Source: Entophlyctis helioformis
Lineage: Eukaryota; Chytridiomycota; Chytridiomycetes; Chytridiales; Chytriomycetaceae
Direction: 5' to 3'
NCBI GenBank assembly: GCA_025526915.1
Contig: JAHLKH010000089.1
Coordinates: forward strand, 39,263 to 103,262
Length of the DNA stretch: 64,000 nt
Shown piece by piece: positions 15,899 to 56,322 of this stretch. Each line of letters starts with the position of its first letter. Positions within the stretch are counted from its first letter, which is position 1. The notes under the pieces are model-generated. The model was not told where the DNA came from, searched no databases, and saw nothing but the letters and a program-made list of their open reading frames with translations. The position numbers and the translations under genes are program-made.

Positions 15899-15982
15899 GC
15901 GAAATGTTTCTGAGGGGTAGGCAATTTCGATGGATTTTCATCTGATTATGACGCTTGGCTCGCGCGGCCGGATGCATCTGAC

Positions 15983-16271
15983 GGGTGGGCAATAGGGCGA
16001 GGGAATGCCAGCAAACCGCCGGCAAATGGCCCGACATTCAAACAATTGCCAAGCGTTTTGGAATTGGATTCGACCCGAGAGGCGTCGAATGCAAGCCAGC
16101 ACATCACACGATGGAAGGTTCGAGTCAGCAACGAGCATGCGACGACAGGCGGGCGTGGCACACCAACGAGATGCTTACCTTGCACCATTGATTGAACAAT
16201 GATGTGATAAGTGACCCGTTAGGTCGATCGGGAGGTGCCCCGATTCAAAGTGTTGGTGGTTGTGCTGGAAG
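15983..16271 (-). ncRNA. Conserved element end downstream of Fanzor ORF, copy 1 (candidate guide-RNA scaffold)
   Basis: About 290 bp between the Fanzor stop (16272) and the element terminus are highly similar to 55964-56249 of copy 2 although non-coding. Short hairpins are visible: ATCGGG-GCACCT-CCCGAT, and CATTG-TTCAAT-CAATG where copy 2 has a six-pair version. TnpB and Fanzor systems usually take their omega/fRNA from this position, with the guide from the flank. The same stretch has a GTAAGC donor and GCTGCTGACTC, so it may instead be promoter and 5'UTR for NDUFS7. Both readings are inference. Confidence 0.35.
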
Positions 16272-18103: not shown

Positions 18104-18345
18104 CCAACTGCTGCCCCTTGGACAGGCTCAGCAGTCCACAAGCCAGCATCAAAGCGACCACGACTTGAGAAGGCATCGGCTGCAGACCGCTCAGAGTGAC
18201 TGGGAATTCCGGACAAGAATATGAAATTGGATTCAAAAAGATTGGAAATTGGATGCCAAATTGAACAAAATTCGAGGCAAACCAGCCGGCCAATCAGGTG
18301 CCGGCGCAAGGTTTTCTATGGGAACGAAATCAATTACCCCACCTC

Positions 18346-18698
18346 CTGCCAGATGCGTGTGCAGCAACGGCGTGCAATGCCATGCCAGAAGCAGACCCTG
18401 GTGCGCTTGACGCACTCGCCAGGCACCTGCAATCCAGCCACGCAAGCGCACCTTGACGGCATCCGAGCATCGCGGCACTGCATAATGGCTCAAGTCACGT
18501 GGCATCTCACGTGACCAGAGTTGCATCCAGCCATTCCGGCATCGATTCTTGGTCGACATCCGCCCTCGACCTGCCGACCGACCTTGGCACTCCCACTCTT
18601 GTAGGTTGGTGGCACGCTTGCCGATGTGCATCGCCGACTGGTCGTCCATGCAGGCTGCTGACTCTTGGGCCATGGCACAATACACTGGCCAGTGACAG
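18346..18698 (+). promoter_or_regulatory. ORC6 promoter with paired CACGTG and 5'UTR intron (module copy C)
   Basis: It contains GTCACGTGGCATCTCACGTGACC (about 18495-18518), a pair of CACGTG palindromes in the same order as copies A and D, then ACATCCGCCCTCGACC. The proposed intron runs 18601-18698: donor TT|GTAGGT, interior GGTGGCACGCTTGCCGATGTG, GGCTGCTGACTC at about 18653-18664, and acceptor GTGACAG touching the ATG at 18699. Confidence 0.6.
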
Positions 18699-37847: not shown

Positions 37848-38072
37848 GGTCACTATGGATCACTATGCGGCAGCGGTTCGAGTCAGCAGCCCGCATGGAC
37901 GGCCAGTGCACGAGTGGGCGACGCACATCAGCGAGCAAGCCACGGCACCTACCTCGTCTGCTCAGTGGCCCGTTTGGTGGTCGATCGGGAGGGGTAAAGC
38001 GGATGTCAGGCTGGATGTCAGGCGGGTCACGTGAAGTACACGTGACTGGAAGGCGGGCCAATCAGCGGCGCA
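37848..38072 (-). promoter_or_regulatory. ADA2 promoter and 5'UTR intron (module copy D)
   Basis: It duplicates 1123-1322 almost exactly over 37869-38072: CCAAT box, two CACGTGA palindromes five bases apart, CTTTACCCCTCCCGATCGACC, donor GAG|GTAGGT at 37952, and GCTGCTGACTC at 37881-37890. Acceptors CATAG occur at 37863 and 37853, giving an intron of about 100 nt ending within 16 nt of the ATG. Similarity stops within about 25 bp on the gene side and at the edge of the transposon on the other. Confidence 0.6.
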
Positions 38073-38079
38073 CTCTCGA

Positions 38080-38108
38080 GGGAGGGGGGGGGGGGGGGGG
38101 GGGGGGGG
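38080..38108. repeat. Long G homopolymer at the left terminus of copy 2
   Basis: GGGA followed by about 25 consecutive G. Copy 1 has only GAGGTGGGG at this place, so the run probably expanded after insertion or is a sequencing artefact. G-quadruplex formation is possible. Confidence 0.9.
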
Positions 38109-38275
38109 TAATTGATTTCGTTCCCATGGAGGACCTCCTGCCGGCACCTGATTGGTCGGCTGGTTTGCCTCGAATTTTGTTCAATTTGGCATCCAATTTC
38201 CAATCTTTTTGAATCCAAATTCATATTCTTGTCCGGATTCCCAGTCACTCTGAGCAGCCTGCAGGCGATGCCTTC

Positions 38276-40062
38276 TCAAGTCGTGGTCGCTTTGACTGGC
38301 CTGTGGACTGCCGAGCCCGTCCCAGGGGCAGCAGTTGTCTGCGTGTTGGTAGTGTCACCAAGAACTGTCCTGCCATTGCCTGTTGCGGCTGTTGGCCTTC
38401 TGCCTCCAGTCGGCGCACTTGTGTGTGCTGCTGGGGCTGCCTGCTGCAATGTCCGAACGGCCAACGTCACAGCCGACACAAACGCACTGGCATCTGCTGC
38501 TGCTCTCTTCCGCTTGCTTGGCACTCTTTGGCGGCTGGCTGTTGGCGTGGCAGCTACAGCAACGGATGGCTGTCCAGGCTCGTCTGTAAGGTCCTTGTCG
38601 TCGTCGAGATAGTCAAGGCACCAGTGTCAACAGAGTCGCAACTGTTGACAGCCATCGCACAACAGGCAGACGGGCTCACCAACAAGGACGTGGATGGATC
38701 ACTCGGCGTATTGTTGAGCTGCCGCGTATCGTCGAGCTGCTGTAAGGCATCGCGCTTGGCTTGGTCTGACATTGAGAACTGTCGAGGCGATACACACAGA
38801 ATGCCTGCAGCAATCCTGCTCACTCATGCCAACCTCCGTCCTGGCTGCCTTTGTGTAGACAGCATACTCTTTCTGGACGGGATCGCTGATGGATCCCCAT
38901 ACAAAGATGTTGTACGATCTGTCGTAGGATGGGTATGTGCTAGTCGTGCAGTTAGTCTGCTGTGCGATCAGTGCATACACATCCTATGAGAATATCCTAC
39001 CGGCATTTGGAGGATGGCTCAACAAGGAATCCGCACTGCTCAACGTCCATCGACCTGATCTTGAAGATGAGTTGCATCTTTCGTGCGGCTGACATGAACT
39101 CTTCCAGGTCTGACTTGTCATTCCGGCCCTTTCCAGTCCGTCGTAAACTGTCTCGCCACGCGTTAAACAGCTGTGTCCATGCAATGGTTAGTGCTGATTG
39201 TCAAGGAGAGTGTGTTGCCTGCCCGTTTGTAAGCTTACTTGCTCCACGGGATAGGACGTAAGCGCGCGATCATACAGGTGCATAAAGGTCGCTCCTTCTG
39301 GGACTGCAAACTCTGCTTTTGGATCAAGTGTCGCAAGCATGCCCAGATTCTGGTTGTTGGCTGCTGCAAAGACGCTCGTCTCGGCAAACTGTCGTGTGAG
39401 GTTTGGAGTGATTGCACTGCCTATTGTGCGTTGTGGGTGATCAGACTTACCTTGTGATGATCGCAGTACTTTGCATAGTGCTCAAGGAGTTGGAGGACGC
39501 TGCTCTTGAATGAGGGATCGGATGCAATGCCATGCATCACGATGTCAGGATTGCTGGGATCGTCGAGGCACGAGAGCTTGACGAGAAGCTTGTCAATGTC
39601 TTTGAGAAGCACCACCAATACTTCACGGCCGCCAAGTTTCGCCTTGATGGCAAAGGCAGGGACATTGTTGTTAAGTCATCTTGGCACGAAGCTTGTCAGA
39701 ACCAAGGGGAGGTGAGACACTTGGACGCATATGACGCCTTTATGCGGGTCATCTGTGAGCTTGACGAGTGGCAACAGCGAGTATATTGGTTCTTCTTGTC
39801 CACCAGTGTCATGCTTTCAAATGAACCGTTGTTGCAGTGGAAGCACAAGCCGTAATTCAGAAGCCTCTCTCATTGGGTTGATGGCCTGCAGGTCTGCTTG
39901 ACTGGGAGCTGGCTCTGTGGTGGCTGCTGCGTCCATGTCGTCCTGCTGGTGCACAGCGGCATGTGGTGGCTGTTGCTGTCCATTCAAACTCTGTCGCCAG
40001 AGCACCACTGCCACTGGTGGTGGGATCGCTGTGATTGGTCGAGCCCAGATTGGTCGCGGCAC
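38276..40062 (-). pseudogene. Unrecognised element gene with C-terminal nuclear-localisation signal, decayed
   Basis: A minus-strand multi-exon gene. A possible N-terminus at 40062 leads to LQAINPMREASELRLVLPLQ. Then come LVVLLKDIDKLLVKLSCLDD and HGIASDPSFKSSVLQLLEHY (donor after 39451), FAETSVFAAANNQNLGMLAT (39239-39388), LFNAWRDSLRRTGKGRNDKS ... KMQLIFKIRSMDVEQCGFLV (about 39002-39170), YDRSYNIFVWGSISDPVQKE, and a tail with MPSKRKRAAADASAFVS and PTAATGNGRTVLGDTTNT. In copy 1 the tail ends KRPRLEKASAADRSE (18140-18198), an NLS. Here a 2-nt deletion at about 38296 shifts that ending, and two in-frame TGA codons lie at 39673-39675 and 39816-39818. The family is not recognised. Confidence 0.45.
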
Positions 40063-40553
40063 TTGCCCAAATGCGCGCCATCAATAGCGAGCACAACACG
40101 GGCGACAACACAGCGGCAGCTGACGGGCGGATGGTTCCGACAGGCAGATGGTTCCGATGGGACATCGGGAAGCGGGCGAACAAAGGCACCGAGCGAGCGG
40201 ACAAATGGGCCAAGCTGCCACGTGGCAGGTGGATCTGATGCGATAATAGTGGATATGGGCAGCTCTGGGGTTTCTCCCATCCCGACAAACCTCGTTGCGC
40301 TTCGCACCACAACGGCCGCTGACAGGTGTGCCTGTGTTTCTGTGTGCCTGCGTGTGTCTGTGTGTGCCTGTGTGTGTGCGTGCGTGTGCATGTGCGTGTG
40401 CGTGTGCATGTGTGTGTGCATGTGGTGGAGAGGGATGTGTGCATGCAGGCGCAACTGAGTGGCAGACGGCAGGCTGCACCAATGCACTGCTGGAAGTAGA
40501 AGTGCTTGCTGGTACTGACCATCACGCTGTTCTATGCCCCTGCCTGCCACGCT
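40063..40553. other. Element interval with GT-rich microsatellite
   Basis: This lies upstream of the unknown minus-strand gene and before solo LTR A. A TGTGTG/CGTGTG-rich stretch covers about 40325-40435. Long antisense frames here are repeat artefacts. No gene is supported. Confidence 0.5.
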
Positions 40554-40746
40554 TGTAACGGATGCTCGGTCGCGGTCACGTGATCCACGTGATCCACGTG
40601 ACCCACGTGACCGGACAGACATTGTCGGGCCGCACTGGCCGCTCTGGTTTTCCCCGTTCTTGCAGTCGTCTGCCCGCCGTTCCCCTGTGTGCATACTCAC
40701 TGCCCCGAGACCAGCCGGCAAGTCCGCCTGGAGGCCCAGTGCTACA
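40554..40746 (-). mobile_element. Solo LTR A (193 bp)
   Basis: Read on the minus strand it runs TGTAGCACTGGGCC ... CCGAGCATCCGTTACA, with TG/CA ends. It is flanked by the 5-bp duplication ACGCT (40549-40553 and 40747-40751). It contains four CACGTG palindromes in tandem (about 40575-40612), more than its sister LTR B at 41074. It was inserted into the intergenic part of element copy 2. Confidence 0.9.
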
Positions 40747-40857
40747 ACGCTCCTCACAGCCCAAGACCTCATCAGTCCACAACTGCCGCCTGCCCAAGAC
40801 AACCAGCCCACAACTACCATCTGCCCAAGACCTCATCATCAGCCCATAACTGCCACA

Positions 40858-41007
40858 GTAAGTCCCACTCCTTGCTGCACACTCTGTTTCGCCGCTGCCG
40901 CCCATTCTGTTTTGCCGCTGCCACGTGCTTTCTTGCTGTGTGTTTTCTTGCAGACACGCACTCTTCACTGCCACATGCTGACGTCCCCACCACTCGCCTC
41001 GACACAG
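40858..41007 (+). promoter_or_regulatory. Putative 5'UTR intron of the XPG-like element gene
   Basis: Donor CACA|GTAAGT at 40858, branch-like CATGCTGACG at about 40975, acceptor CGACACAG at 41007, four bases before the ATG at 41012. The layout is the same as the host 5'UTR introns, but the sequence is different apart from TGCTGAC. Confidence 0.5.
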
Positions 41008-41073
41008 CATCATGGGAATCAACGGATTCGGCCAGGCATCCAAGAAGGGGTATTGCAGCGTTTCAATACCCCC

Positions 41074-42643
41074 TGTAGCACTGGGCCTCCAGGCAGACTT
41101 GCCGGCTGGTCTCGGGGCAGTGAGTATGCACGCAGGGGAACGCGGGCAGACGACTGCAAGAACGGGGGAAACCAGTGAAAGGGAAGAGAGTCGGTAGCAG
41201 ATAAGACTGCACAGATGGTTGAGTTCATTGGGTTACCAAGGGGACTGGGGGAAGCACAGACCTGCACAGATGGTTGAGGAGAGCTGGGGAAACTCTGTGC
41301 AGGAAAGGCAGATTGGTGTCAATGGGCAATCACGTGACCCAGACTCGATCCTTACAGCCCCCCTTGCCGAGACTCTCGAATGGAGTATCTCAAGGCGAGA
41401 GGTGAGGCACAACAGAGGAGAGAAATGGGAACGTGTGGGCCATCAGGGCATGCAGTGCGGAAGAGGTAAGAGGTGTGGCCGGGGAATGGGACAGGCAGTA
41501 GCGGTCGAGGGGCGTTCCGACTTGGCTTGGCAAAGGGTGGACAGTCGCAGGCTGGTTCTGGTTTGGTGCTGGTGCTGGTTCTGGTTGGGCGCTTTACTGG
41601 TTAGGAGGGCGCTTGGACTGGTTGGTACTGGTTGGGCGACTGTTCCCGATGGCTGGCGGACGGAATGGCTTGCCTGCGATGGCGCTTGGTGCGGCTGGCA
41701 ACAGACAGACGGCGGACAGATCGGCGACTTGACGCGACGCGAGACGAGAAAAGCGATTTTGGTCACGTGACCATCACGTGATCACGTGACCCAACCACAC
41801 GCGAGTGCACGTGATCGGCCGATTCGGCCGAGTGCAGGCAACGAACGAAACGAACGAAACGAACGGACAGACGGACAGGGACGGACGGGGATGGATGGGG
41901 TGTGGTCCACAGCAGAAGTAGAGCGATGGGAGGAAGGCAGGGACCACCAGGAGAGGGAGACGGAACAGATGGGCTGGGACAGGGGGCAGGACTCGCACAG
42001 AGCGCACAGTGCAGGCAGAGGCAACAGTGCATGTGGTCCAAAAATGGTGGAAGAATGTGGAAGATCATGAGCCAAGCCAAGCAGATGATGCACAATGGCG
42101 ACGGGCAGAGTGGCCAAGGTGCGGCATGGGCATGGCAGGGGCAGGGAACAGTGGGAGGACGATGGATGGGTGAGAGGTTGGGTGTTAAACGACGGTCTTG
42201 GGCAGTGTCCGTTCGAGAGCAGCGTCAGAACGCTGTGGCGTTTGGCCGACCGACGACGACGACGACGACGAGCAAGCCCAGATGGGCTGCTGTGTGGTGG
42301 CGGCCGCGGCCGGCAAGAGAGAGAGGTGGCGAAGGGCTGGGTGTGGCGAAGAGAAGAGTAGACAACTGTCTTGGTACAGCTCTCCTGAAAGGGAAGAGAG
42401 TCGGTAGCAGATAAGACTGCACAGATGGTTGAGTTCATTGGGTTACCAAGGGGACTGGGGGAAGCACAGACCTGCACAGATGGTTGAGGAGAGCTGGGGA
42501 AACTCTGTGCAGGAAAGGCAGATTGGTGTCAATGGGCAATCACGTGACCCAGACTCGATCCTTACAACCAGAGCGGCCGGTGCGGCCCGACAATGTCTGT
42601 CCAGTCACGTGGATCACATGACTGCGACCGAGCATCCGTTACA
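41074..42643 (+). mobile_element. Solo LTR B, split by the TRIM insertion
   Basis: Same family as LTR A, opposite orientation: TGTAGCACTGGGCC at 41074 and CATCCGTTACA ending at 42643. Flanks CCCCC (41069-41073) and CCCCC (42644-42648) form the target duplication. The LTR itself is 41074-41175 plus 42572-42643; the rest is the nested TRIM with its own duplication. It has fewer CACGTG units than LTR A. Confidence 0.88.
41176..42566 (-). mobile_element. TRIM-like non-autonomous LTR element
   Basis: Two direct repeats of 181 bp (41176-41356 and 42386-42566), both starting TGAAAGGGAAG and ending CCTTACA, look identical. Target duplication ACCAG is at 41171-41175 and 42567-42571. Just inside the left repeat is GCCCCCCTTGCCGAG, a polypurine tract on the minus strand, so transcription runs leftward. 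The internal 1.03 kb has no gag or pol. It contains a CACGTG cluster (41763-41815) and a GACGAC repeat near 42255. The polypurine site resembles CCCCCCCTAGCCGAG of the Ty3 element at 45893, suggesting it is mobilised by that lineage. No TGG primer-binding site is visible. Confidence 0.85.
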
Positions 42644-45636
42644 CCCCCTGACTGCACAGTGTCTGATGCACTGTCTGTGGCATTCGGAGCCACTCGGCTG
42701 CACCAGCCTCATCAACCAGCCACACCTCATCAACAGCACCAGCCTCATCAACAGCACCAGCCTCATCAGCCAGCCGCACCCAGCATCATCATCATCCTCG
42801 TCGACATGCTGAGTGTGTTCTACCCGCAGCTTGCGGCAGCAGCCGCACTTCAGCCGCCATCGTCCATTAGTGAGTGGCTAGCAATCGTCGCACCCATCCT
42901 TGAGGCATTCCTCAAGTCGGTCGGCAACGGCCGGATCACCATCTTCCACATCGACGGCCAGCACGGCAACTCTGGCATCAAGCAGCAGGCGCATACCAGC
43001 CGTGCCTTGAGCGTCTTGCGCGCAGCGGCCAAGGTCCAGCAGTTCTTTGCCAAACGTGCAACCAATCAAGGGTTTAGACAGCTAGCAATGCAAGTTCCCT
43101 GCTTTGTGTTGCATGATGCGATTCTAACTAACAGTCAATGTTGCAGAAAAGAGCTGCAAGCCCTCCTCCATTCATTCACATTGACACACGACCATAAGGG
43201 CCACATTGCCAGGCTCTCAAGATGCTGCTTGGACCCACTTCCCCGCATAGGGTCTGTTGGTGTGCCCACGAGGCCGACATTTGCATTGCACGCGATGCTG
43301 CCGAGTATGCAAGCCAGCCAAGGTACAGATCACCATGATATCTGTCTGTTGTGATTGATGGCTGACAATCTGCATCTCACAACAGCAGCATTCCCATGGC
43401 GGTGATTGCCAACGACTCAGACGTCATTTTCCACTGTGCCGGACGTTGTCCTGTGATCACAACACGCATGTACCGCAGCCGCGCCACCAATATCCACACA
43501 TACAATCACCAGGGCATTGCAACCATTGCAGCTGCCCTGGGATTGCGCAGTTTCCCGGGCGCTTGCCAACTGGTCGCCGCCATGTCAAAAAACGACTATC
43601 ACGATTGTTACAGGCGAGGTATGTGCGATTCCTGGCTTCATGCTCTGTGTTGTCATCGATCCTGTGGTGTTGACTAACTCGTGTTGCCACTCACATCATC
43701 TTGCAGGCATTGCTGCCGCCGTCAAGTTCGTTAACAAGCAGTTTGACACCGCAGCAAAGAAGCACAGCTTCAAGAATCCGGCCGACTTCTGTGCGCTCCT
43801 TCAAGATCCTACGGAGGCCATGGATTTCGCGTACACTGTCGGATTCGCGTACTACAACGACCTGCTGAAGGTTGGAGGCGTGGCTCTTGCCAAAACCTTC
43901 CTGAACGCCTTTGCCATTTTCATCCTTCACAAGGAATCTGGGGCTTTCGCCAACATGTTCATTGCCCAGACTGGCAACAGCAGTCAATCCACCACGCCAG
44001 TGCCAAGGCAAGTCTTTGCTTGACCGGTCAAGGACGCTGCATTGTGGATGCATTTGCATGCATAGCACCATACTGACCATCCATTGCTACGTGGCAATGA
44101 CAGCAGCCAGGCTGCCAACACGACCACCACGCCCCAAGAACGGTATGTATGCATGTGATCTCTGCAGGTCCTCACATTACTGACTTATGCTCCTATTTTG
44201 ATGTCATTGTTGGATCGTGATGCAGATGCCAGCTGCGTGACAGCTGCGTTCTTGTTCACCCCAAGTCGCAGAAACACAACCCCAACTTGATCGCCATACA
44301 TCTGACTCTGGAGGATGTTGAACGGCTTGGCATCGACATTCTCAACACAAGGGAGATGGATGCAGCTTTGGACGAGATCAAGAACTGCCCAATTGCTCTC
44401 GACTGCGTCCTCAAGTACACGGCAGATTGCCTCGCTGGCATGCCAGACAGTGTTGCTGCCCGTGATTGTCTGGCCGAGATCAGCAGGTCGGCGAGCTCGA
44501 AACTGTTACGGATTGTCCACGAGCAGTCTCAAGCAGCAACAGTACGCGCGACGCTCGAGCCAGTCGATCAGGCTGTTTGGGATGGACACGTAAGTTGCTG
44601 CATGTCTCTGATGCATGTGCACTCCTTGCCTGGACCTGTCAAACTCAATCCACTGCTCATTGTACAGGGCGCTGCCGAAAGGATGAAGAAGCAGTTGGGC
44701 AAGATTGTCAATCGTCCATGCAAACCACACCGCCACTTATCAACACCGCGTACGTACTGCTTGCATTGGGATCATGCCAACTCATGTACTGACAGCACCT
44801 TCTTTGCTGAACGGTGCTATTCCAGAAACAGAAGCGCAGAAAGACTCACAGAAAGACCCACAGCAAGCCACGCAGCAAGTCAAGCATCAAGGCAAGGCCA
44901 TCACCCAAGGCGGTTCCCCATTGACCGCTGCCGACATCTGCAACAAGGCCGCAGACAGGCTGAACAAACTGAGAAGCCTCACAGATGGCCAACCAGTGAC
45001 ATGCCGCGAGCAGCTGGAAGCGGCCATTGACTTGCTAGAGTCCATCATCAAGCAAGCCACGGTGCGTCTTCATCTTCACTGGCTGTGTGTGCATGCCATG
45101 ACTTGGCACGATCACTCATTGTTCCACTTGACAGGAGGCTCAACTGCCCAAGCTGCCTGAGCAAGAACCACCATCTGCCGACAGCCAGGCTGGTCAAGCA
45201 GACTGCAAGATCTTGTATCTCAATCAAGATGCAGACATCCGGACGACGGTCAGTTCTGGTGTTCCATTGTTGCTTGCATATGCATTGTGTGCACTCGGAA
45301 GGCATTGCTGATCGTGCATCCAACCTCTACAGGCGCGACGCCGAATCACCAAGCAACAGGAGGTGGCGAACAAGCAGAAGCACGAAAAGCAAGCTGCCAA
45401 GGCCGCGGCAGACAAGGCCATCGACAGGAACAAGGAGGGTGCACGCCGGCAAGAGCGCCAGAAGAAACCAGGGAGCAAGAAGCAGACGTGAGTCTTGTAC
45501 ACTGTGCCATGTGCCTTGGGCATGCTTGCTGACATGTGTGAGGTTTGCAGATCCAATGCTGGAGCACGAGTGACACAATGTCGGGTTGACAGAAAGGGGG
45601 GACGCCTCTTCTCAGGGGCACCCATGACGCTCCCTG

Positions 45637-45892
45637 TGTCAGAGTTCCTGCTCGAGTGCAGCAAAGGCACAGGGAACTGCGGGTCTGCAACACAGACAGA
45701 GGGAGAGGAGCTGTCAGGCGACAGCGTCTGAGGCAGGCAAATGAATGTGTATTGTAGAAGTACCTGCAACACAGACAGAGGGAGAGGAGCTGTCAGGCGA
45801 CAGCGTCTGAGGCAGGCAAATAATAGAACAGCAAGGGAAAGGCAGAGACGCGAGACATAGAATTGGAAAAGCCAACAGATGATAATCTAACA
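45637..45892 (-). repeat. 3' LTR of the Ty3 element
   Basis: 256 bp, TG...CA. It has one small indel and a few substitutions relative to the 5' LTR, and is preceded by the CCCTG duplication. Confidence 0.93.
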
Positions 45893-45948
45893 CCCCCCCT
45901 AGCCGAGGAGGCCAAGAGGACCCAAGGCGGTAGAAGAAGAGAAAAATT

Positions 45949-48900
45949 TTAAGCCTCGTCATCCCCCAGATCATCCATGGCGGGCCTCGAAGGCATTGAG
46001 CATCTGGAGGGAGCCAGTGAACGACGCGCGTGGTTCCCATGTGTTGTCGGACTCAGGGTAGCCTTCCCACTTGACGAGCCAGCGGCGGCGGTTGCCCCTG
46101 CCCTTGACGTCGCGGATGGCTTCAATGATGTAGATGTTACCCTCAGGGGTGACTTCAAGGGAGCAGGCGGGCGTGGGCAGGGCGATCCGGGAAAGCAGCA
46201 GCTGGATCTACGTAAGGACGAAGGAGGTCCACATGGAACCAGGGATGCACGCGTGCAAAGCGGAGGTAGATCCAGGCAGCGGTTGAGATTCGTAGCATCG
46301 TCATCAATGGCAGTGATGCGGAAGGGACCGAGCCAGGGAACACGGACGAGATCAGGACGCTGAGCATCAGCCGGCCAGGTGAGACCATTCGAGGACAACC
46401 AGACAAGAGAGCCGACAGGGAGAGGTGCAGGCGCACGGCGAGACATGTTGGCTTGAACGCGAGCCTCCTCCTGAGCATCCGCAAGGTGAGTGGTAGCGAC
46501 ACCAGAGGCCGCGGCAACGCGTGAAACTAGATTGGCCACAGCAGGGGCAGCATTGGCAGGAGAGATAGAGGGGAGCATGGAAGGGTTGTGACCAAAAGCC
46601 AGGTAGTACGGGGCAAAGCCAGTCGACGCATTGGGCGAGCTGTTGATTGAGAAGGCGACGGTGTGCAGGAGGTCAGGCCAGTTCTTGCCCGAGTAGTCCG
46701 CGTACTTGGAGAGAATCTGCTTGGTGGTCTGGATGGTGCGTTCCGACTGGCCATTGGTCTGCTGATGGCGAGCCGTGGCAAGGTGCATGTCGATGTTGAG
46801 CGTGGCCATGAGCGACGTCCAGAAGGCCGAAGCAAAGCAAGGATCGCGGTCTGAGACAACAGAGGAGGGCACTCCCATGCCAGCACAGACCCAGTGCTTG
46901 CAGAAGAGCTCAGCCAGAGTGGCCGCGGATGCGGTGCGGGTGGTAGGTGCAAAGGCGACCAGCTTTGTGAGCCGATCGACAATGACAAGCACCGCATCCA
47001 AGCCTGAGTCAGTCATGGGCAGGAAGGCAATGTCGTAGGAGACGTCTGTGAAGCGGTCCTCAGGGATCAGCAGAGGATGGAGCAGACCCTGAGAGCGACG
47101 GCGATCGACAAAGTGGCGCTGGCAGATCTCGCACGAGGTAGCAAACTGGGCGGCATCCTCACGCAGGGAAGGCCAGAAGAATGCGTTGAGCAGTCGGCTG
47201 GCAGTGTTTAGGCTGCCAAAGTGACCGGCCAGGGGCTTGTCATGGTAGTTGGAAAGCAGACGCGTGCGTAGCTCGCCGTCAGGAACGTAGAGGCGGCCGG
47301 AGTGGTACCAGAGGCCGTCTGAGAGGACCATGTGCTTGAAGATCCTGGCATCGGAAGGGGAAGGGCTAGTCAGGCCAGAGCGCCAGTCAAGCATCTGCAG
47401 GGCATAAGGATCGGTAGCAAGCAGAGGGCGGATGGTGTCCTTGAGCGACGCGGCAGACGTGATGGCATTAACCGCGGCAGCGGCAGTGGCCGGTGGGTCG
47501 AGGTTGCCGTGAACGTCGTGGCAGGACGAGCAATGAGGCTGGTGGGCCGGGTGGCGGGAGAGGAAGTCAGCGAGCACGTTGGTTGGGCCTGGGACGTACT
47601 CAATGGTGGCGTGGAACTCCTGGAGCGCCATGACCCAGCGAACCTGGCGCGGCGTCAGGTTGGGCTGACGTGGAAGCCAGATGAGGGCACGGTGGTCGGT
47701 GCAGATGACAAACTGGCAGCTGGACAGGTAGTGACGGAACACACGGCAGACTTCGACGAGGGCCAGGAGCTCGCGCTCATGGACTGGGTAGTTGACCTCG
47801 GCCGGGACCATCTTGCGACTGTAGTAGGCCACTGGGTGCCACCCGTCGGCATGCTCCTGAGCGATCCAGCCACCGATTGCATAATCCGACGCATCCGTGT
47901 AGACGCGAGTTGGCAGTTTCGCGTCAAAGAAGCGGAGGACTGGGGCAGTGGTGATGGCATGGATCAGATAGTGGACCGCCTGCTGCTCGCGGGCGCCCCA
48001 GACAAACGGTGCGGCGGCGAGTGTCAAGGCGTACAGCGGTCGGGCGAGCTCGGCAAAGTACGGGATGAAGTCCTTCAGCCAGACGACATGGCCCAGGAGG
48101 GTGAGAACGCCATCGCGGTTGGTGCAGGTAGTGTGCTCCAACACTTTGTCGATGCTGTGCTGAGCGATGGAGTAGCCGGTGGGCGAGACCATATGACCGC
48201 AGAACTCGACAGACGGCTCGAGGAAGGAACACTTTGAGCCTTTGGCGAAGATGCGGTTGTCGCGGAGGACCTGCAGGACGTGCGTGACATGCTGGCAGTG
48301 CTCGTCCAAGGAGTGTGAGTAGATGAGCAGGTCGTCGACGTAGACGCCCATGAAGACATCAAGAGCGCCGGCGAACAAGCGGTTGGACAGCGCCATCATT
48401 GTAGCGGGGGCATTGACGAGGCCGTACGGCATGACGCGAAACTCAAAGTGCCCATACCGCGTCACAAACGCGGTCTTGTGCACGTCCTTGTCAGCCACAC
48501 GGATGTTCATGAAGCCGTCGCGGAGGTCGATGGACGAGATGAACTTGCAGCCAGCCACCTGGTCGCGGAGGGCCGGGATGGTGGGCAGGGTCGTCTTGTC
48601 CTTGACCGAGATGGCGTTGAGGCCGCGATAGTCGACGCAGAGGCGTAGGGTGCCGTCCTTCTTGCCCGCAAACAGCATAGATGCCGCGTACTGAGACGTG
48701 GATCGGCGGATGTAGCCGAGGTCGAACCAGGTCTGGATCTGCTTGCGGAGGATCTCGAGCTCAGCGTTGTTGAGACGAGGCAGAGGGCGGCGAGGTGGAA
48801 CACGCGCGTCCGGGATGAGTGGGATGGCGTGGTCCTCCGGGCGATGGGGTGGGATGCCGGTTGGCTTCTGGAAGACATCGGCATACTCCAGCAGAATGGC

Positions 48901-51285
48901 GTTGATGCGCGGCTCGTGGCATGTGGGGACCAGATCAAAGTCAATAGGCGTGCTGGAAGCAGGAGCCGAGACAGAGGAAACCGTTGGCGTGTAGTGGTGG
49001 TGCTCGCAAATCGCGGCAATGTGGTCGGTAAGGGAGTCGACGGTCCAGCCGCCAGCCGGCTCGTTGGCCTCAATGGCGAAAACGATGTCGTCCGAGTTGC
49101 GGAGATCCGTAGAGGAGATGAGGTTGACCATGAATGGAGCCGGATCGACAGGGTTGGATAGCAATGACCAGGTAACGGGGCAGTTGGAGTGCCGTGGCGT
49201 GAAGCGGAGCGTGCCGGCCGAAGCGTCCCAAAGGTTGATTGTGACCTTGTCAAACCAGGGAGTGCCAATGATGATGTCGGACGTGATGTCGGCAATGAAG
49301 AAAGGCAGAGAGGCCTGGTAGTCGCCGGACAAGAACAGGCCGTGCAGCATCTCGGACACCACCACGCGTTCGCCACCTGCATAGGCAATATCAAACGGCA
49401 AGATGCGTGTGGGTGTGAGGTGCCATCTGTTGGCCCACTGACGAGAGACAATCATGGCCGAGCTGCCGCTGTCGATGGTAGCGGTGCAGGGAGCCCCCAT
49501 GAAGGTGCCCGCAATGTGGGAGACAGTAGGCGAGACGAGAGATGGGGGGGCAACGTCTTCGACGGATTCATTCCGGCAAGGCACATCATCGGCGGCATCT
49601 CCACTGCTTGGAGTAGCAGGCGTTGCCACTGGCACGGACTCAGGCAGTAGTGGAGCTGGCGGTACCGGCGGGGGCAGGGGCACCACCGGCGGCAGCGGCA
49701 TAGCTACCGGCGGGGGTGGGGGCACCACCGGCGGTTGCGGCTCTAAAGGTATGCCAGGTGGGGGATGAGTCGGGTGCACGGGAGTGGCAACAGGAGTGCG
49801 ACGAGAGTGACGAGCAGGGACGAACCTTGGATCGATGACGGTCGCCTTGTAGGTGGGGCAGTCCGAGGACTGGTGGGACGGGTTGCGGCAGCGAACGCAA
49901 CCGCCGCGGGAGATGATCCAAGCGTAACCCTCGGAGTGAGCGACTTCATGGCCGTGAGCGAGACATCGTTGTAAGAATTGATGGGACGAGACGATGCCAG
50001 AGGCGGGGCCGAGATCTGCCGGACAGGGCGGGACGCGTTGGGTGGGAGCGCTTGCAGGCTTGGGAACGCGGAGGGCCTCTTCAGTGTGGCCGGCCTCGCG
50101 AAGCTCTGTGTGTTTCTTGGCGGTGTGATCCACGAGTGCCCTCATGGAGTCAAACTTTTTCCAGTCTGTGACAATGTGGGCCCTGAGTAGAGGGTCAAAG
50201 AGCTTGGCAAAGGAGAGGACGTTCTGCTTGTTGTACCCGTGGTCAGCATCCTTCATGAGAGTAGGGTACTCGGCAATCAGCGACGTGAATGGTGGGGCTG
50301 TCCATGGAGACTTGTGCCACGACTCGAGACGGTTGGACGCGTTGAACTGGACAGAGTGGGAGGTGAATCGGGTCTTGCCAGCGTCGCGAAGGGTGGTCCA
50401 TGTCTGGGATTCAGGAGGTACCGAGTCGAACCACTCGTTGGCCCACATGTGGGCTATGTCCTCGAGGCGGCTGATGACAAGGCCGACAATCTGGGAAGGG
50501 AGGAGAGTGGTTGAGGGGTAGCAGCGAAATGCGTTGTTGACTTGTGAGACAAACGTAAGCCAATCGGTGTGGACAACGTCGGGATTCTTGTCGCTGTTGG
50601 TACCGGAGAAGAAGGGGATCTTGCCGATCTGGGATTGGAAACTGCGGTTCTGGTTATCAGGGTCCGAAGCTGGGGCGGCGATACCGCGTCCTTCGAGCGC
50701 CTCGATACGGACCAGCAGGGCAGCGTTGAGCTCTTCCGCGTAGGTGAGAGATTGTGAAAGACCGTTGAAGAGCTTGGCAAAGTGGGACGCGGACTGAGTG
50801 GTCAGGTCGGCGTTTTGGTTGACGATATGTACGAGGCTGTCATGGTGACGTTTGAGCTTGGTATTCTCGTCGATCAGGTGGTTGATAAAGGCCACTGTGT
50901 GTCGGGCTTCCAAGTCGAGAGCGTCTGTGTGTTTAGCAAATGCTTCCAGGACGGGCGCAAGGGCCCCACGGAGGTTGGCGACGGTCTTGGTGTCGCTACT
51001 TTTGGCATGGGTGATATCGATGTCCCTGGTTGCCTGTGTATCGGCCCTCTGGGGGGGCTCGTCGAGGTACCTGAGCGCCATCTTGTCGAAGGAGAAGATT
51101 GGGGGGTCGTTGCTTGGATGGTCGCTTTGAGGAGGAGGCGAGAATAGGGACTCTTGTTTTTCATCGTCGGTGGGGACGGTTGAGGGGTCCTTGGCTGGGA
51201 AGTCGCCAGGGAGCTTGAGGGCGTCGTTGGGCGGCCGTGCAGGTTGGAGCGGCCTGCTGGGGAAGAAGCTGTAGATGGCGTCCAT
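45949..51285 (-). CDS. Gag-Pol polyprotein of the Ty3/gypsy element (1778 aa)
   Basis: A single open frame. Gag lies at residues 1-480, ending with a CCHC knuckle (CVRCRNPSHQSSDC, about 465). Aspartic protease DSGS is at about 605 (TATIDSGSSAMIV). Reverse transcriptase holds LCVDYRGLNAI, SSIDLRDGFMNI and YVDD at about 980. RNase H follows (VYTDASDYAIGGWIAQEH, about 1128). Integrase has an HHCC zinc finger (about 1350) and a DDE core (VVSDRDPCFAS, HQQTNGQSER about 1508). Beyond about 1675 the frame becomes nonsense, while another frame reads WFHVDLLRPYVDPA and a third reads YIIEAIRDVKGRGNRRRWLV and KWEGYPESDNTWEP, a chromodomain. So the C-terminus is broken by small indels near 46255 and 46190. 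Enzymatic motifs are intact. Confidence 0.93.
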   Translation of the reverse strand: MDAIYSFFPSRPLQPARPPNDALKLPGDFPAKDPSTVPTDDEKQESLFSPPPQSDHPSNDPPIFSFDKMALRYLDEPPQRADTQATRDIDITHAKSSDTKTVANLRGALAPVLEAFAKHTDALDLEARHTVAFINHLIDENTKLKRHHDSLVHIVNQNADLTTQSASHFAKLFNGLSQSLTYAEELNAALLVRIEALEGRGIAAPASDPDNQNRSFQSQIGKIPFFSGTNSDKNPDVVHTDWLTFVSQVNNAFRCYPSTTLLPSQIVGLVISRLEDIAHMWANEWFDSVPPESQTWTTLRDAGKTRFTSHSVQFNASNRLESWHKSPWTAPPFTSLIAEYPTLMKDADHGYNKQNVLSFAKLFDPLLRAHIVTDWKKFDSMRALVDHTAKKHTELREAGHTEEALRVPKPASAPTQRVPPCPADLGPASGIVSSHQFLQRCLAHGHEVAHSEGYAWIISRGGCVRCRNPSHQSSDCPTYKATVIDPRFVPARHSRRTPVATPVHPTHPPPGIPLEPQPPVVPPPPPVAMPLPPVVPLPPPVPPAPLLPESVPVATPATPSSGDAADDVPCRNESVEDVAPPSLVSPTVSHIAGTFMGAPCTATIDSGSSAMIVSRQWANRWHLTPTRILPFDIAYAGGERVVVSEMLHGLFLSGDYQASLPFFIADITSDIIIGTPWFDKVTINLWDASAGTLRFTPRHSNCPVTWSLLSNPVDPAPFMVNLISSTDLRNSDDIVFAIEANEPAGGWTVDSLTDHIAAICEHHHYTPTVSSVSAPASSTPIDFDLVPTCHEPRINAILLEYADVFQKPTGIPPHRPEDHAIPLIPDARVPPRRPLPRLNNAELEILRKQIQTWFDLGYIRRSTSQYAASMLFAGKKDGTLRLCVDYRGLNAISVKDKTTLPTIPALRDQVAGCKFISSIDLRDGFMNIRVADKDVHKTAFVTRYGHFEFRVMPYGLVNAPATMMALSNRLFAGALDVFMGVYVDDLLIYSHSLDEHCQHVTHVLQVLRDNRIFAKGSKCSFLEPSVEFCGHMVSPTGYSIAQHSIDKVLEHTTCTNRDGVLTLLGHVVWLKDFIPYFAELARPLYALTLAAAPFVWGAREQQAVHYLIHAITTAPVLRFFDAKLPTRVYTDASDYAIGGWIAQEHADGWHPVAYYSRKMVPAEVNYPVHERELLALVEVCRVFRHYLSSCQFVICTDHRALIWLPRQPNLTPRQVRWVMALQEFHATIEYVPGPTNVLADFLSRHPAHQPHCSSCHDVHGNLDPPATAAAAVNAITSAASLKDTIRPLLATDPYALQMLDWRSGLTSPSPSDARIFKHMVLSDGLWYHSGRLYVPDGELRTRLLSNYHDKPLAGHFGSLNTASRLLNAFFWPSLREDAAQFATSCEICQRHFVDRRRSQGLLHPLLIPEDRFTDVSYDIAFLPMTDSGLDAVLVIVDRLTKLVAFAPTTRTASAATLAELFCKHWVCAGMGVPSSVVSDRDPCFASAFWTSLMATLNIDMHLATARHQQTNGQSERTIQTTKQILSKYADYSGKNWPDLLHTVAFSINSSPNASTGFAPYYLAFGHNPSMLPSISPANAAPAVANLVSRVAAASGVATTHLADAQEEARVQANMSRRAPAPLPVGSLVWLSSNGLTWPADAQRPDLVRVPWLGPFRITAIDDDATNLNRCLDLPPLCTRASLVPCGPPSSLRRSSCCFPGSPCPRPPAPLKSPLRVTSTSLKPSATSRAGATAAAGSSSGKATLSPTTHGNHARRSLAPSRCSMPSRPAMDDLGDDEA

Positions 51286-51404
51286 TTGACGCGTCGGTCG
51301 AATTGACCAATCAGCAACGAGATGTCAGGAAGTGGGTCGGAGACGCGTTGTGGGTGAATGGCACGATGTTTGAGCAGATCTGAAGGTGCGAGACAACAAG
51401 GAGA

Positions 51405-51760
51405 GATGGTGGACGCCGAGCGCAATGAGGAAGGTGTTGAGGACGGTGTGGAGGGCCGGAGAACCGGTAGGCACTGAGCTCGACGAGAAGGACGACGAGG
51501 GTAGTGTGGGGACTGGAGGACCAGTGGACGCCGAACGCAACGAGAAGGACGTTGAGAACGGTGTAGAGGGCCGGAGAACCAGTAGGCACTGAGCTCGACG
51601 AGAAGGACGACAAGGGCAGTGTGGGGGCTGGAAGACCAGTGGACGCCGAGCGCAACGAGAAGGACGTTGAGAACGGTGTAGAAGGCCGGAGAACCGGTAG
51701 GCACTGAGCTCGACGAGGGCAGTGTGGGGGCTGGAAGACCAGTAGGCGTCGCAAGTGACG
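51405..51760. repeat. 115-bp tandem repeat in the Ty3 leader
   Basis: Three units begin at about 51415, 51530 and 51645 (GCCGAGCGCAA...), plus a partial one. Each contains GGCCGGAGAACC and GCACTGAGCTCGACGAG. They lie between the 5' LTR and the gag start at 51285. Confidence 0.85.
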
Positions 51761-51835
51761 AGGAGGATGTCAGAAGGGATGTGAGGGCCAGGCGGGTGCC
51801 GCGAGCGGCGAGATCGCTGTTTCTAAGGCTGTTCT

Positions 51836-52093
51836 TGTCAGAGTTCCTGCTCGAGTGCAGTGAAGGCACAGGGAACTGCGGGTCTGCAACACAGACAGAG
51901 GGAGAGGAGCTGTCAGGCGACAGCGTCTGAGGCAGGCAAATGAATGTGTATTGTAAGAAGTACCTGCAACACAGACAGAGGGAGAGGAGCTGTCAGGCGA
52001 CAGCGTCTGAGGCAGGCAAATGAATAGAACAGCAAGGGAAAGGCAGAGACGCGAGACATAGAATTGGAAAAGCCAACAGATGATAATCTAACA
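51836..52093 (-). repeat. 5' LTR of the Ty3 element
   Basis: 258 bp, TG...CA. It is adjacent to the CCCTG duplication at 52094-52098, where the Fanzor reading frame resumes. Confidence 0.93.
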
Positions 52094-55000
52094 CCCTGTG
52101 GCCACCACCAGCGACAATCAACAGCCTGCTACAGTCACCAGCGGCGATGATCAACAGCCAGCCGCGGATGCACCCGGCCATCCCACCACCGACGCACCTG
52201 ATCCACCTGCTGCAGACGCACCTGACCATTGTAGCATGAGAGTGGAGCTGGAGGTACAATTTAGGATCACCATTCTGCCTGCCTGCATGCATGTATGACT
52301 TTGCATTTACTGACATGTTGGCTGGCATGGTGCTCAGGACATGCTGTCCAGCGGCCCACAGAGTGCCCCGATCTTTGGCGTTCATGCCATCAGGTCATTG
52401 GCAGGCTGGACGTGTCCTCTGCTCTCCCAGGACGTCGTTGCAAGGGTGCACTTGTTTACCGTCGGTGCACGGCATGCCAGCCTCGTCATCATCGGCGCCA
52501 TCCTCAAGGAGCTGCTTGAGCTGGATCAAGACGCACCCCTACCGCCCAAGTACCATATCTACGGCTGGCTTGATGGCCAAACAATGCGGTACTGCTTCCT
52601 GGATGTCAACTTCAAGTGACTTGATGACATCAGCGACAAGGACATCATCAAGGGCCTCGGCGCTGTCACAAAAGCGGAGCTCCTATCTGGTCGGTTCACC
52701 CTTCGCGAGGGCATCACTGTGCGGGCCATGTACAGACGGAGTCAATACAACCACACAAGCAGGGAATGTCGCTTTGGGCACCCAGTGAAACTGGCGAAGG
52801 GTACAACACTCGAGTGCTGTACATTTGAGTCGCCTGAGTCACTTGAGCACGACACCGCCAAGCAGCCCGACAATCAACCAGTTGCACCCCAGCCAGCTGT
52901 GCCCGATGATCATGGCAAGCCTGAGCAGCCACCACCACCAGCACTGGCAGTGCCAACACCGGATGACACCCTCTCGATCATCACAACGGACGAAACATCT
53001 ATGGCATCCCTCTTCTGGCACGTGTCGTATGTGTTGACTGGAAGCGGGATGGAGCAGCCGCAGTCCACCATGCTCCAGCTCAATGCTTGGCTTGTGACCA
53101 TCGCCCAGCTCATGATCCATCGTTGCTGGACGCCGAGCACGTTGCAGGCCAACGCGACCAAGAGAGCCAACACGACCAAGAACAATGCACGGCAGAAGGG
53201 CACGACCAAGAACAACGCATGGAAGGCCGAGTGGAAGGCAGGCGCGCGGCATCCAACCAGATGGTGGTCGAGCTCGCACCCAGACAATGCACAACGGGCT
53301 GATGCACAGCAGGCAGCTGTGCCCTATCGGCTTGTCAACACCCTGCTGACCGCAAGCGGCGACATATTCAGCAACCTGGCGAGGGAGGTGAGCGGTACGC
53401 TTGCCACACACTTCATCACAAACCGGTCAAAGCTTGCATTGGTTGCAGCCCAGAGAGCAATGCCTGCTGCGACTTCTGAGCAGATTGCAGCATGGGTCGA
53501 TGCCATATTTGCGACCGTTGAGACCACCAAGGTTGCCAGGCGTGCCGCCACTCAGGACGCCGCTCTGGACACTGCTCAGGACGCTGCTCAGGATGCCACC
53601 ACGGACGACGCCATGGACGCCGCTCAGGATGTCGCTCCTCCCGCCCCAACTCTCAAGCGGACCGCGTCACTGCTACTGCTGGCCACCGATGGCAGTGCAT
53701 CCAAGAGGCAAAAGGATGAGACTACTGCCCCTGTTGCCACAGATGCCATGCAGGACACACCACCAGCTGCACAGGACAGGGACGCCATCGAGATCCCGCA
53801 AGAGCTGCATCCAATTCAGGCGATTGTGCGCAGCATGTCAACATCGGACGTTGGACGGTTCTACCAACTCCTCAAGCTCGCTGGCACTTCGGTGATGAAG
53901 CTAAGCCCGCAACCAGCCAGCCGCAATACTTTTGTCCTCATCACCGAGGCCACGCTCTTCTGGGCGGTGGTGGGGCAGCAAAGGGATCGCGTACCCACCA
54001 AGGACAATGCTGTCCTCCAAGCATTGCAAGAGGAGCTCCTGGCCGCAGTTGGTAAGTTGCATGCGTCTATGCCACGTCAATGCTATTTGATGCTGACACT
54101 CCACTTTTATCCAAAACTGCAAAGATGACAAGTTGACTCTCAAGTCAACCAACGAGAACATCCAAAGGGCCTTCAGCAATAGCAAGGAGCTGGCCATCCT
54201 CGACATCCTCCTGCCCGGCCTCCGCCCCAAGAATCGACGCCATCCAACACAGGCCGAGGGTGATGAGGCCGCGGTTGATTCTCAGCCTCTGGTGGCTTCA
54301 AAGCAAGTGATCAGACAAGGCAGCATCATGACGGACGGATACACGGTCTATCAGCTGGCACTGGACTGCTGCACAGACCGTCCAGAGTCACCTCGCAGTA
54401 TGTGGCGTGCTTGGATGCTGTGGTGCACACATTGGCTCTGACTGCCGCCTTGCTCTGCAGGTCCCAACGCGGCGTCTCCAGCCCAGCAGCCCAGTCTTGC
54501 TGATGCTGCTGTTGGCATCCTTAATGCCTTGAATGGTCAATTTATCGAGCCTGACCACATGGACGTCACATGTGAGTTGCTGTGCCAATCCAGACGCGTT
54601 CTTGTTGTCCACACCAACTGACATGCCATCCACAGCCGCCAATCCAGCCAACCCATCAGCCACCAAGCCATACACGCCCAATCCTGTAAGTCACTTGCAT
54701 GCTAACCTCACGCATTGGTGCACATGCATTGCACATTCCTCACTCATGCCATGGCATGGCAGGCTCAGCGCAACTTTAATGCATCCCAGCGACTGCCCAA
54801 TGTTGCTGATGCCAACAAGCTGCTCGCCGACAAGGACTATGAGACTGTTCGCGTTGTCAGCTTTGATTGGGGCGAGCGGTACCTGTTTGGCGCGTCCAGC
54901 ATGCTGGTCAATGTCAAGGAGGAGACATACACGATGGAGTCCAACTACGTGCTCTCCTCTGGCATGGCACGAGCCGAGCACAGCCTTCAGCGGTGGTATG

Positions 55001-55644
55001 CATGCAATGACTCTGCCACGCGCACTCTTGACCAGATCAACTCACAGTGCCTGCCTCTTGTGCCAGGCTCAACAATCAATATGCCAAGGCAACCGACATC
55101 CAGGCGGTCATTGCATTCAAGACAGCAAAGCATGCCAATCCAGACATCAAGCCTGGCGAGAGAGCCTTTTGGGATCTGCGCTGTCATGCGTACTGCACGC
55201 CATTCCTGAATGCATGGGTATGTTTTCTCTGTTTCTGGATGTCCATTGACATGGCCGCCATGCTGCTTGATTGCCTGCTGATTGCACTGGACGGCATGGC
55301 ATGGCATGGCATTCCACAGAAGGTCAAGGCCAAGCGGTTCACCATGCGCAGCAACAGCATGTCTATTCGCGGAAACGCTCTTGAGGGCATCATGAAGCTG
55401 GCAGGATTGACCACTGGCAAGCGCGCATCTGCTGCATCTCAAGGCCTCCCTGTCAACCAATCAAAGTCGACAGAGGACAACATTCCCGTTGTCTGGGCAT
55501 TTGGCATTGACTTTACAGGCCAAGGTGGCCGGCACGCTGTGTTTGAGAAGTTTCTCATCAGGCATCTGCAGTCGTCTGGATATGCCTATGTGCGTCTGAT
55601 GCCATCCATCCATCCATCTGTGCACCAACTGACCACACAATCAT

Positions 55645-55647
<3 letters not shown>

Positions 55648-55684
<37 letters not shown>
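55648..55684 (+). repeat. CA microsatellite in Fanzor copy 2 intron
   Basis: About 18 CA units form the 3' part of the intron before the zinc-ribbon exon; the acceptor is the final ACAG. Confidence 0.9.
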
Positions 55685-55685
<1 letters not shown>

Positions 55686-55963
55686 TCTACCGCTGCAACA
55701 AGAACCTGACCAGCCAGATGTGTCCGCAGTGCAAGCAGCGGATCCCAGACAAGAACCGCACCAACCTGCGACGCTACGAGTGCATACCATGTGAGACCGT
55801 CTACCACCGAGACGTGCTTGGAGCCACCAACATCGGGATGGTCGCACTGTGGCATCTGCTCTATGGACAACGGCCGCTCTACTTGACGCACACGCCAGTC
55901 AATCCGCCTGTCAACAGCATCGCAGCAGTGTCCTCCACAGACACAGCACGTCACTCCATGTGA

Positions 55964-56249
55964 CTTGTTTGACTACCAACACTTTGAATCGGGGCACCTC
56001 CCGATCGACCTAACGGGTCACTTATCACATCATTGTTCAAACAATGGTGCAAGGTAAGCATCTCGTTGGTGTGCCACGCCCACCTGTCGTCGCATGCTCG
56101 CTGCTGACTCGAACCTTCCATCGTGTGATGTGCTGGCTTGTATTCGTCGCTTCTCGGGTTGAATCCAATTCCAAAACGCTTGGTAATTGTTTGAATGTCG
56201 GGCCATTTGCCGGCGGTTTGCCGGCATTCCCTAGCCCTGTTGCCCACCC
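55964..56249 (+). ncRNA. Conserved right end of copy 2 (candidate guide-RNA scaffold and/or promoter for the FGD gene)
   Basis: Non-coding but strongly conserved with 15983-16271. Features in order: AATCGGGGCACCTCCCGATCG (hairpin), GACCTAACGGGTCACT, CATTGTTCAAACAATG (six-pair hairpin), AAG|GTAAGC donor at 56054, GTCGCATGCTCGCTGCTGACTC to 56110, ATTCCCTAG, end CCCACCC. The CCTCCCGATCGACC ... AACGGG ... GCTGCTGACTCGAACC string also occurs in the eIF2-gamma and ADA2 promoters. Either an fRNA source, a promoter/5'UTR intron reading into the neighbouring gene, or both. RNA data are needed to choose. Confidence 0.35.
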
Positions 56250-56322
56250 CTCGACAGCTTGCAGGCTTCCAATCGGTCACTTTGCCAACATTTTGAAATT
56301 GACTGAAAATTTGGGCCTGCAA

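Follow-up and report, generated by a model that had tools for sequence, protein, structure and literature searches.

A FEN1/XPG-type nuclease accompanies, and is probably joined to, the Fanzor of a transposon-like element family in Entophlyctis helioformis

Some Fanzor elements lack a transposase (PMC3627910), and the role of the Fanzor cutting activity is not known (PMC10432273). A 64,000-nucleotide stretch of contig JAHLKH010000089.1 of the chytrid Entophlyctis helioformis (C89:39263-103262; the window) raises the question of how such an element is built and what its nucleases might do. A first-pass annotation of this sequence had placed at 38080-56249 a composite DNA element with a Fanzor-like nuclease gene, an XPG/FEN1-like nuclease gene and a third gene. 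The analysis described here demonstrates that the element belongs to a family of DNA transposon-like elements of about 10 kb with common ends, in which a gene for an XPG/FEN1-like 5'-nuclease under purifying selection lies upstream of, and co-oriented with, the Fanzor. It also suggests that the two nucleases are probably parts of one protein.

The genome, 29.6 Mb in 482 contigs, was searched with both ends of the element. At up to 3 mismatches, it contained 55 occurrences of the left terminal 21-mer and 101 of the right terminal 20-mer, but 0 of either pattern read backwards. DNA searches with the left-end and right-end regions gave 40 matches each, including the window's own (the best 40 of 83 and of 210 candidates, respectively). 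When all 55 left ends and 100 of the 101 right ends were paired, 18 pairs among the ends listed stood in the correct order at a spacing of 8,633-12,016 bp, 15 of them at 9.6-10.3 kb, and 0 stood in reverse order. A total of 21 copies and three additional fragments were fetched. Both ends were seen by BLAST in 18 of the 21 copies, mostly 9-10.5 kb apart; thus the uninterrupted unit of about 10 kb, earlier reconstructed at 9.9 kb by removing later insertions from the window copy, occurs naturally. In 5 of these 18 two-ended copies the outermost left-end bases were absent or altered, with the match beginning 31 or more bases into the query. The window element itself extends from 38082 to 56252, which corrects the earlier boundaries, and has been enlarged by the later insertions. 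Copy counts are not haploid counts, because some loci are present twice in the assembly: contig C185 is allelic to the window (98.95% identity across 1.6 kb of flank), and C162 and C298 have a common right flank. The features of the window element are as follows.

38073..38081, no strand: left copy of the 9-bp target-site duplication CTCTCGAGG; the identical 9 bases stand straight after the C185 right end (L017 5436-5444)
38082..38126, plus strand: left terminus GAGGG(G)nTAATTGATTTCGTTCCC with a variable G run, located by the 21-mer matches
38184..39978, minus strand: g1, an intron-containing gene whose model P0003 has 417 amino acids (aa), located by tblastn of P0003
41012..45487, plus strand: XPG/FEN1-like nuclease exons and basic C-terminal part, from the exon map of copy C1, motifs and fold matches
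52096..52253, plus strand: remainder of the link exon (XPG to Fanzor), the first part of which lies within 45551-45636
52338..54051, plus strand: Fanzor N-terminal exon, about 580 aa in other copies; ratio of nonsynonymous to synonymous differences (pN/pS) 0.23-0.57 in 15 pairs of 6 copies
54125..55963, plus strand: Fanzor C-terminal exons with RuvC and TNB (zinc ribbon), from PF07282 on the C1 copy and the exon map
55972..56252, plus strand: conserved right-end region directly after the Fanzor stop, candidate ωRNA scaffold, from a 20-copy alignment and hairpins
56233..56252, plus strand: right terminus, family form CGCCCTATTGCCCACCCCTC, located by the 20-mer matches

The association of the two nucleases was examined at the XPG-like loci of the genome, of which clustering of the listed matches gave at least 85. 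At 48 of the 85 listed loci, a Fanzor TNB domain lay on the same strand 5.0-12.1 kb downstream, and in 39 of these 48 the distance was 5.3-6.6 kb. In control counts over the same 20 kb at these 85 loci, 2 same-strand TNB domains were upstream and 0 were on the opposite strand. The pairing first suspected from the window copy therefore recurs across the genome. Weighing against it are the 37 listed XPG-like loci without a Fanzor match; however, at least 4 of these (window, C240, C95 and C112) do hold Fanzor sequence in the fetched DNA, and some are unpaired because the best 150 of 205 TNB candidates were scored or because the contig ends. The family's own ends were matched on both sides at 24 of the 85 loci, on the left only at 10, on the right only at 16 and on neither side at 35 (wrong-side controls, 1 and 0). 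A Fanzor still lay downstream at 17 of the 35 loci with neither end (e.g., C6:118065, C63:99288 and C193:32399). These loci may represent additional element families that carry this module, or they may be eroded copies; a locus with neither end matched does not prove other ends, since C53, among the 17, is a fetched copy of the family with eroded ends. Genome-wide, at least 150 Fanzor TNB loci were scored from the 205 candidates, and the family's right end lay within 1.5 kb of 60 of the 150. The remaining loci thus point to Fanzor families distinct from this one, or to copies whose ends have eroded, and additional Fanzor element families may exist in this genome.

The XPG-like protein carries an acidic motif set (VDxxS, FHVDG, EAD, DSD and xDY), the residues of which we take to occupy the metal-binding positions of FEN1. 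VD and DSD were present in 23/23 loci. Automatic extraction misread 3 of the 23, two of which were legible in another listing; EAD was present in 18 of the 20 correctly read loci, with HKAD in one of the others and NESD in the second. The ratio of nonsynonymous to synonymous substitution rates (dN/dS) of this part was 0.15-0.46, with purifying selection in 28 of 28 pairs, and its predicted fold matched EXO1/FEN1. Against this assignment, the structure model was poor (mean pLDDT 61.7, pTM 0.48, Foldseek TM about 0.3), the Pfam XPG match fell under the cut-off (PF12813, 13.9 versus 24.2 bits; 3 of 36 members matched at E<=10), and sequence and profile searches of PDB with the protein found no FEN1; the protein is thus too diverged for these searches to call. 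The PDB matches obtained, to a transporter ATPase (E 0.25) and to a protein phosphatase and a ribosomal protein (E 0.5-0.6), were taken as chance. A protein search in which the best 8000 candidates were scored found two proteins, both from E. helioformis, and one viral contig matched over 44 residues at 27%. Motifs and modelled fold support the view that the protein works like a FEN1/XPG nuclease, although profile matches do not establish membership. The PIN-domain, XPG-like protein proposed earlier is thus supported by acidic motifs, purifying selection and fold matches, and not by a Pfam match over the cut-off.

The Fanzor assignment was confirmed by a TNB domain over the cut-off in copy C1 (PF07282, E=1.4e-10, 41.6 bits versus 26.3), in agreement with the RuvC/zinc-ribbon protein read from the window. 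The Fanzor/TnpB-like motif D-X(125,275)-[TS][TS]-X-X-C4 zinc finger-X(5,50)-RD (Bao & Jurka 2013, PMC3627910) was whole in 3 of 6 gene models, with spacings of 225, 191 and 205; in the other 3, the predicted exons differ. The RuvC exons were weakly constrained (pN/pS 0.39-0.71), which counts against the explanation preferred below. In the window copy the tblastn match of the N-terminal exon holds 2 stops. A search with the RuvC part found 8 relatives among 3337 candidates, all from E. helioformis.

Whether these nucleases are made as one protein was addressed by splice-aware modelling. All six copies modelled, which represent four subfamilies (C1, C13a, C38, C178, C95 and C2), had an open path from an XPG start to the Fanzor stop, giving proteins of 1,705-1,851 aa in 18-22 exons with recurring splice sites, and all 18 C1 exons map in order onto the window copy, where two are split by later insertions. 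The link exon begins about 25 codons ahead of a methionine common to the four subfamilies, opening with a splice-acceptor-like sequence at this constant distance; its frame was open in 9 of 9 copies, and the last XPG exon joined it in frame in 6 of 6 models. From these predicted paths we consider it rather likely that the XPG-like domain, a basic linker and the Fanzor form one spliced protein of about 1,700-1,850 aa. The alternative that the two are separate genes with their own promoters, the Fanzor starting at the conserved methionine (M[TS]L[SPA]AA) and all else unchanged, we regard as possible but doubtful. That methionine was found in 9 of 9 copies examined, in all four subfamilies, and a start there is possible because the 24 codons ahead of it showed no purifying signal between A/B and E/F, which are distant subfamilies. 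The annotated model P0001 also stops after the XPG domain. Several features of the modelling weigh on the same side: the path endpoints were forced by the analyst, the C95 start is not a methionine, and breaking the frame after the conserved methionine shifted the score by just -0.4 to 9.5, a weak control. The natural frame outscored both shifts in 5 of 6 copies, with C95 the exception. Gene finding without a fixed end ran on into host genes and was discarded. The link match was broken by a stop or shift in C121 and C103, and it is for this reason that our confidence in the fusion was lowered to the level given. Two separate genes would, however, leave very short space for a terminator and promoter between the parts. 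Both nucleases predicted at the outset are thus present, probably encoded by one spliced gene, making two genes in the element instead of three.

The remaining gene, g1, which encodes the protein with a nuclear localization signal (NLS), also departs from the earlier picture of three independent genes sharing the same ends, since it is truncated or absent in some subfamilies and the two nucleases are probably one reading frame. The N-terminal half of g1 is lost in some subfamilies, and its N-terminal part had no tblastn match in the fetched D and E copies. The g1 of the window copy is interrupted by an in-frame stop at a point that six other fetched copies read through, provided that this stretch, which the annotated model skips, is coding. 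Pfam scans gave no significant family match for g1, and a protein search found 3 relatives, all from E. helioformis, with the best 8000 candidates scored.

The left and right ends are imperfect inverted repeats of each other over a short length, in keeping with the short similar termini already recognized. Across copies the left terminus is GAGGG(G)nTAATTGATTTCG (short form GAGGG(G)nTAATTG), and the reverse complement of the right end is GAGGGGTGGGCAATAGGGCG (short form GAGGGGTGGGCAATAGGG). The length of the G run (38082-38108 in the window) varies between copies. Copy 1 and copy 2 of the window, the latter being the element described above, have both ends in common. A tandem pair of right termini, 19 bases apart, stands at C108:57694-57732.

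Insertion of the element was accompanied by a target duplication of 9 bp at a subset of copies. In a sample of 15 copies with readable flanks, from 23 (the 21 fetched and two in the window; the 8 left out lack the left end, part of the contig or an intact left terminus), the flanks matched at 7 or more of 9 positions in 6 and at 9/9 in 3. Flanks were typed and boundaries set by eye, with a slack of up to 2 bases on the left and 1 on the right. Among mismatched left-right pairings, 4 of 210 reached 7 of 9 and none was higher. Counting against a general duplication, 9 of the 15 copies did not reach 7 of 9, the window copy included. For the window copy this is explained by its allele: CTCTCGAGG borders the window element on the left and, on the right, the C185 element, which retains the 9-bp duplication, while at the window right junction 16 bases (56253-56268) differ from the C185 allele (L017 5436-5447). 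The CTCGA duplication proposed earlier was rejected, because its right-side CTC is the element's own end; the true duplication is CTCTCGAGG. The bases 56253-56268 may represent a scar at precisely the position from which a guide would be taken. Two copies of a 201-bp repeat with 98% identity lie 36.7 kb apart at 1123-1323 and 37872-38072, and the second adjoins copy 2 at its left insertion site.

The Fanzor stop is followed, up to the right end, by a conserved, hairpin-forming region of about 280 bases (mean column identity 91% in 20 copies). In hairpin I, 3 of 20 copies have A-U in place of one G-C pair, with both sides changed, and when compared with shuffles that retain the relatedness among copies, 1 of 500 reached its cell count and covariation score. 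At a further position, five different sequences each form a hairpin (z -1.4 to -2.7). Known Fanzor ωRNAs are located in the corresponding right-end position (PMC10432273, PMC10711439), and the hairpin region here probably encodes the ωRNA. Several results argue against an RNA structure here: 212 of 500 shuffles reached the count of doubly changed pairs, the fold of the whole region was unremarkable (z -1.8), and RNAalifold covariation across the whole right end was weak (covariation term -0.1). An Rfam search of 55600-56400 gave no match at E<=1. A splice-donor-like motif, AAGGTRAG, is conserved after the Fanzor stop (56051-56058 and aligned positions); by eye, no later AG follows it in the element, save one near the end of the window copy.

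The divergence of the copies is mosaic. Identity to C1 is mostly 85-94% over the left 0.8-2.1 kb and the RuvC part of the Fanzor, whereas the middle reaches only 65-80% in those subfamilies; synonymous divergence (dS) between subfamilies is 0.09-0.28 in the RuvC exons versus 0.8-2.0 in XPG. This contrast suggests that lineages probably exchanged their ends long after the split of the core. Such exchange would result from repair-driven copying, with Fanzor breaks one possible cause, and equally from ordinary recombination between repeats.

These observations may be accounted for by a model in which the XPG-like and Fanzor nucleases act in guided cutting and copy-back repair. The right-end transcript would serve as ωRNA, with its guide taken from flanking DNA, and the Fanzor part would cut a matching site without the element on the sister chromatid, the homologue or the excision site. 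The XPG-like part would then trim 5' flaps or resect at the break, and repair would copy the element back. Insertion with a 9-bp stagger would be the work of an enzyme acting in trans or of one unrecognized here. Copying back would also homogenize the ends, which fits ends that are alike across subfamilies around a strongly diverged protein core. We lean slightly towards this explanation as a whole. Its stronger form, in which a single transposon polypeptide with a FEN1/XPG-type 5'-nuclease and a Fanzor would couple guided break, 5'-end processing and copy-in, as a module kept across subfamilies and possibly beyond these ends, has in our estimate not quite an even chance.

What moves the element bears on this model, and here two other accounts must be weighed. 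Pfam scans of the element pieces found no recognizable transposase at E<=1, as the first reading of the window had noted. The element could be a non-autonomous Mutator-like (MuDr) element moved by a Mutator-like element (MULE) transposase located elsewhere, with the two nucleases as incidental passengers. The 9-bp duplication, the size that marks MuDr/MULE elements, is found at 9/9 in 3 of 15 copies and in the window/C185 pair, and Fanzor1 elements of Rhizopus, Phycomyces and Mucor have 9-bp target-site duplications and MuDr-like terminal inverted repeats (TIRs) without a MuDR transposase (PMC3627910). However, the MULE transposase domain PF10551 had no match in six frames of the whole genome, although an intron-split domain could escape this search, the control for which was positive in 3 of 14 genomes, and all 28 pairs show purifying selection on the XPG part, which would not be expected of a passenger. 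No autonomous relative of the element was found. We consider this account unlikely. The Merlin domain PF12762 (IS1595-type DDE) likewise had no genome match, in a search from which introns could hide one (control positive in 1 of 14), and the hAT dimerization domain PF05699 had none in a search whose control was silent as well.

Conversely, the XPG-Fanzor protein or g1 might itself be the mobilizing enzyme, in a new form of transposition by guided cutting and flap processing. The empty Pfam scans of the element, the g1 protein without a significant family match, and the occurrence of XPG and Fanzor together across subfamilies, as well as at listed loci with neither end matched, are consistent with this proposal. 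Staggered 9-bp duplications at unrelated sites are, however, a mark of integrase-type strand transfer, and the sites duplicated here are seemingly unrelated, which points away from guided cutting at matching sequence; we regard this account as highly improbable. The model of guided cutting followed by copy-back repair, with insertion left to a separate or unrecognized enzyme, thus remains the one that we prefer.

The window also contains the insertions that enlarged the element and a second, deleted copy.

15980..18346, minus strand: copy 1, an internally deleted relative of about 2.3 kb with both ends, which retains part of the Fanzor and the right-end region
41074..42642, no strand: later insertion resembling a long terminal repeat (LTR) element, a 1.39-kb unit with 184-bp direct terminal repeats and inverted duplications of adjacent sequence
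45637..52096, minus strand: later insertion, an LTR retrotransposon with LTRs at 45637-45895 and 51836-52096

The first insertion splits XPG exon 1, and its 184-bp direct repeats (41176-41359 and 42386-42569) are 99% identical. The LTR retrotransposon interrupts the link exon, with CCCTG flanking both sides. Its open reading frame (45949-51285; 1778 aa) matched RVT_1, RNase H and H2C2 (an integrase zinc domain) over the Pfam cut-offs and rve under the cut-off; by this domain set it is probably of the Ty3/gypsy type. A 115-bp repeat in three tandem copies (51409-51753) lies within the element beside the open reading frame.

What is new here is that the members of a Fanzor element family encode a FEN1/XPG-type nuclease as well, probably within one protein with the Fanzor. 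No report of the two in one transposon was found among the titles and abstract openings of the open-licence literature. The pairing would suggest a double role for these elements, in DNA cutting and in processing of the ensuing repair: the fact that a flap- or resection-type nuclease recurrently accompanies the Fanzor, and is probably fused to it, points to repair after guided cutting, which is testable. If true, the fusion would be a natural precedent for an RNA-guided cutter joined to a 5'-nuclease. With at least 150 TNB loci in 29.6 Mb, which is not a haploid count because the assembly holds some loci twice, E. helioformis would also be a rich source of Fanzors and ωRNAs.

Among the closest known systems are the MuDr-like Fanzor1 elements ROr-4, PBl-3 and MCi-4 (Bao & Jurka 2013, PMC3627910), which likewise have fungal hosts, a Fanzor1 gene, 9-bp duplications and no MuDR transposase inside. 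A difference is that the words "xpg" and "exonuclease" occur 0 times in the main text of that paper. The suggestion of an undescribed family may therefore hold for the XPG-Fanzor pairing, but not for Fanzor elements with 9-bp duplications and no transposase, which have already been described (PMC3627910). The Mariner elements that encode a transposase, an endonuclease and Fanzor1 or a methyltransferase resemble the present family in having a second nuclease alongside Fanzor1, but a recognizable Mariner transposase is encoded by them (PMC3627910). The FEN1/EXO1/XPG 5'-nucleases share the acidic motif set and fold matches with the E. helioformis protein, whereas the latter sits in a mobile element beside a Fanzor and is too diverged for Pfam or PDB sequence calls. 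Spu-1 of Spizellomyces punctatus, with its protein SpuFz1, is also a chytrid Fanzor element with an ωRNA towards the right end (a candidate in the present case), Fanzor-less "ghost" copies and no transposase between its repeats (PMC3627910, PMC10432273). However, Spu-1 is about 2.1 kb long with 33-bp TIRs, putative TA duplications and a 633-aa protein (PMC3627910, PMC10432273), while the E. helioformis element is about 10 kb long, has 9-bp duplications and encodes a much larger protein with an XPG partner.

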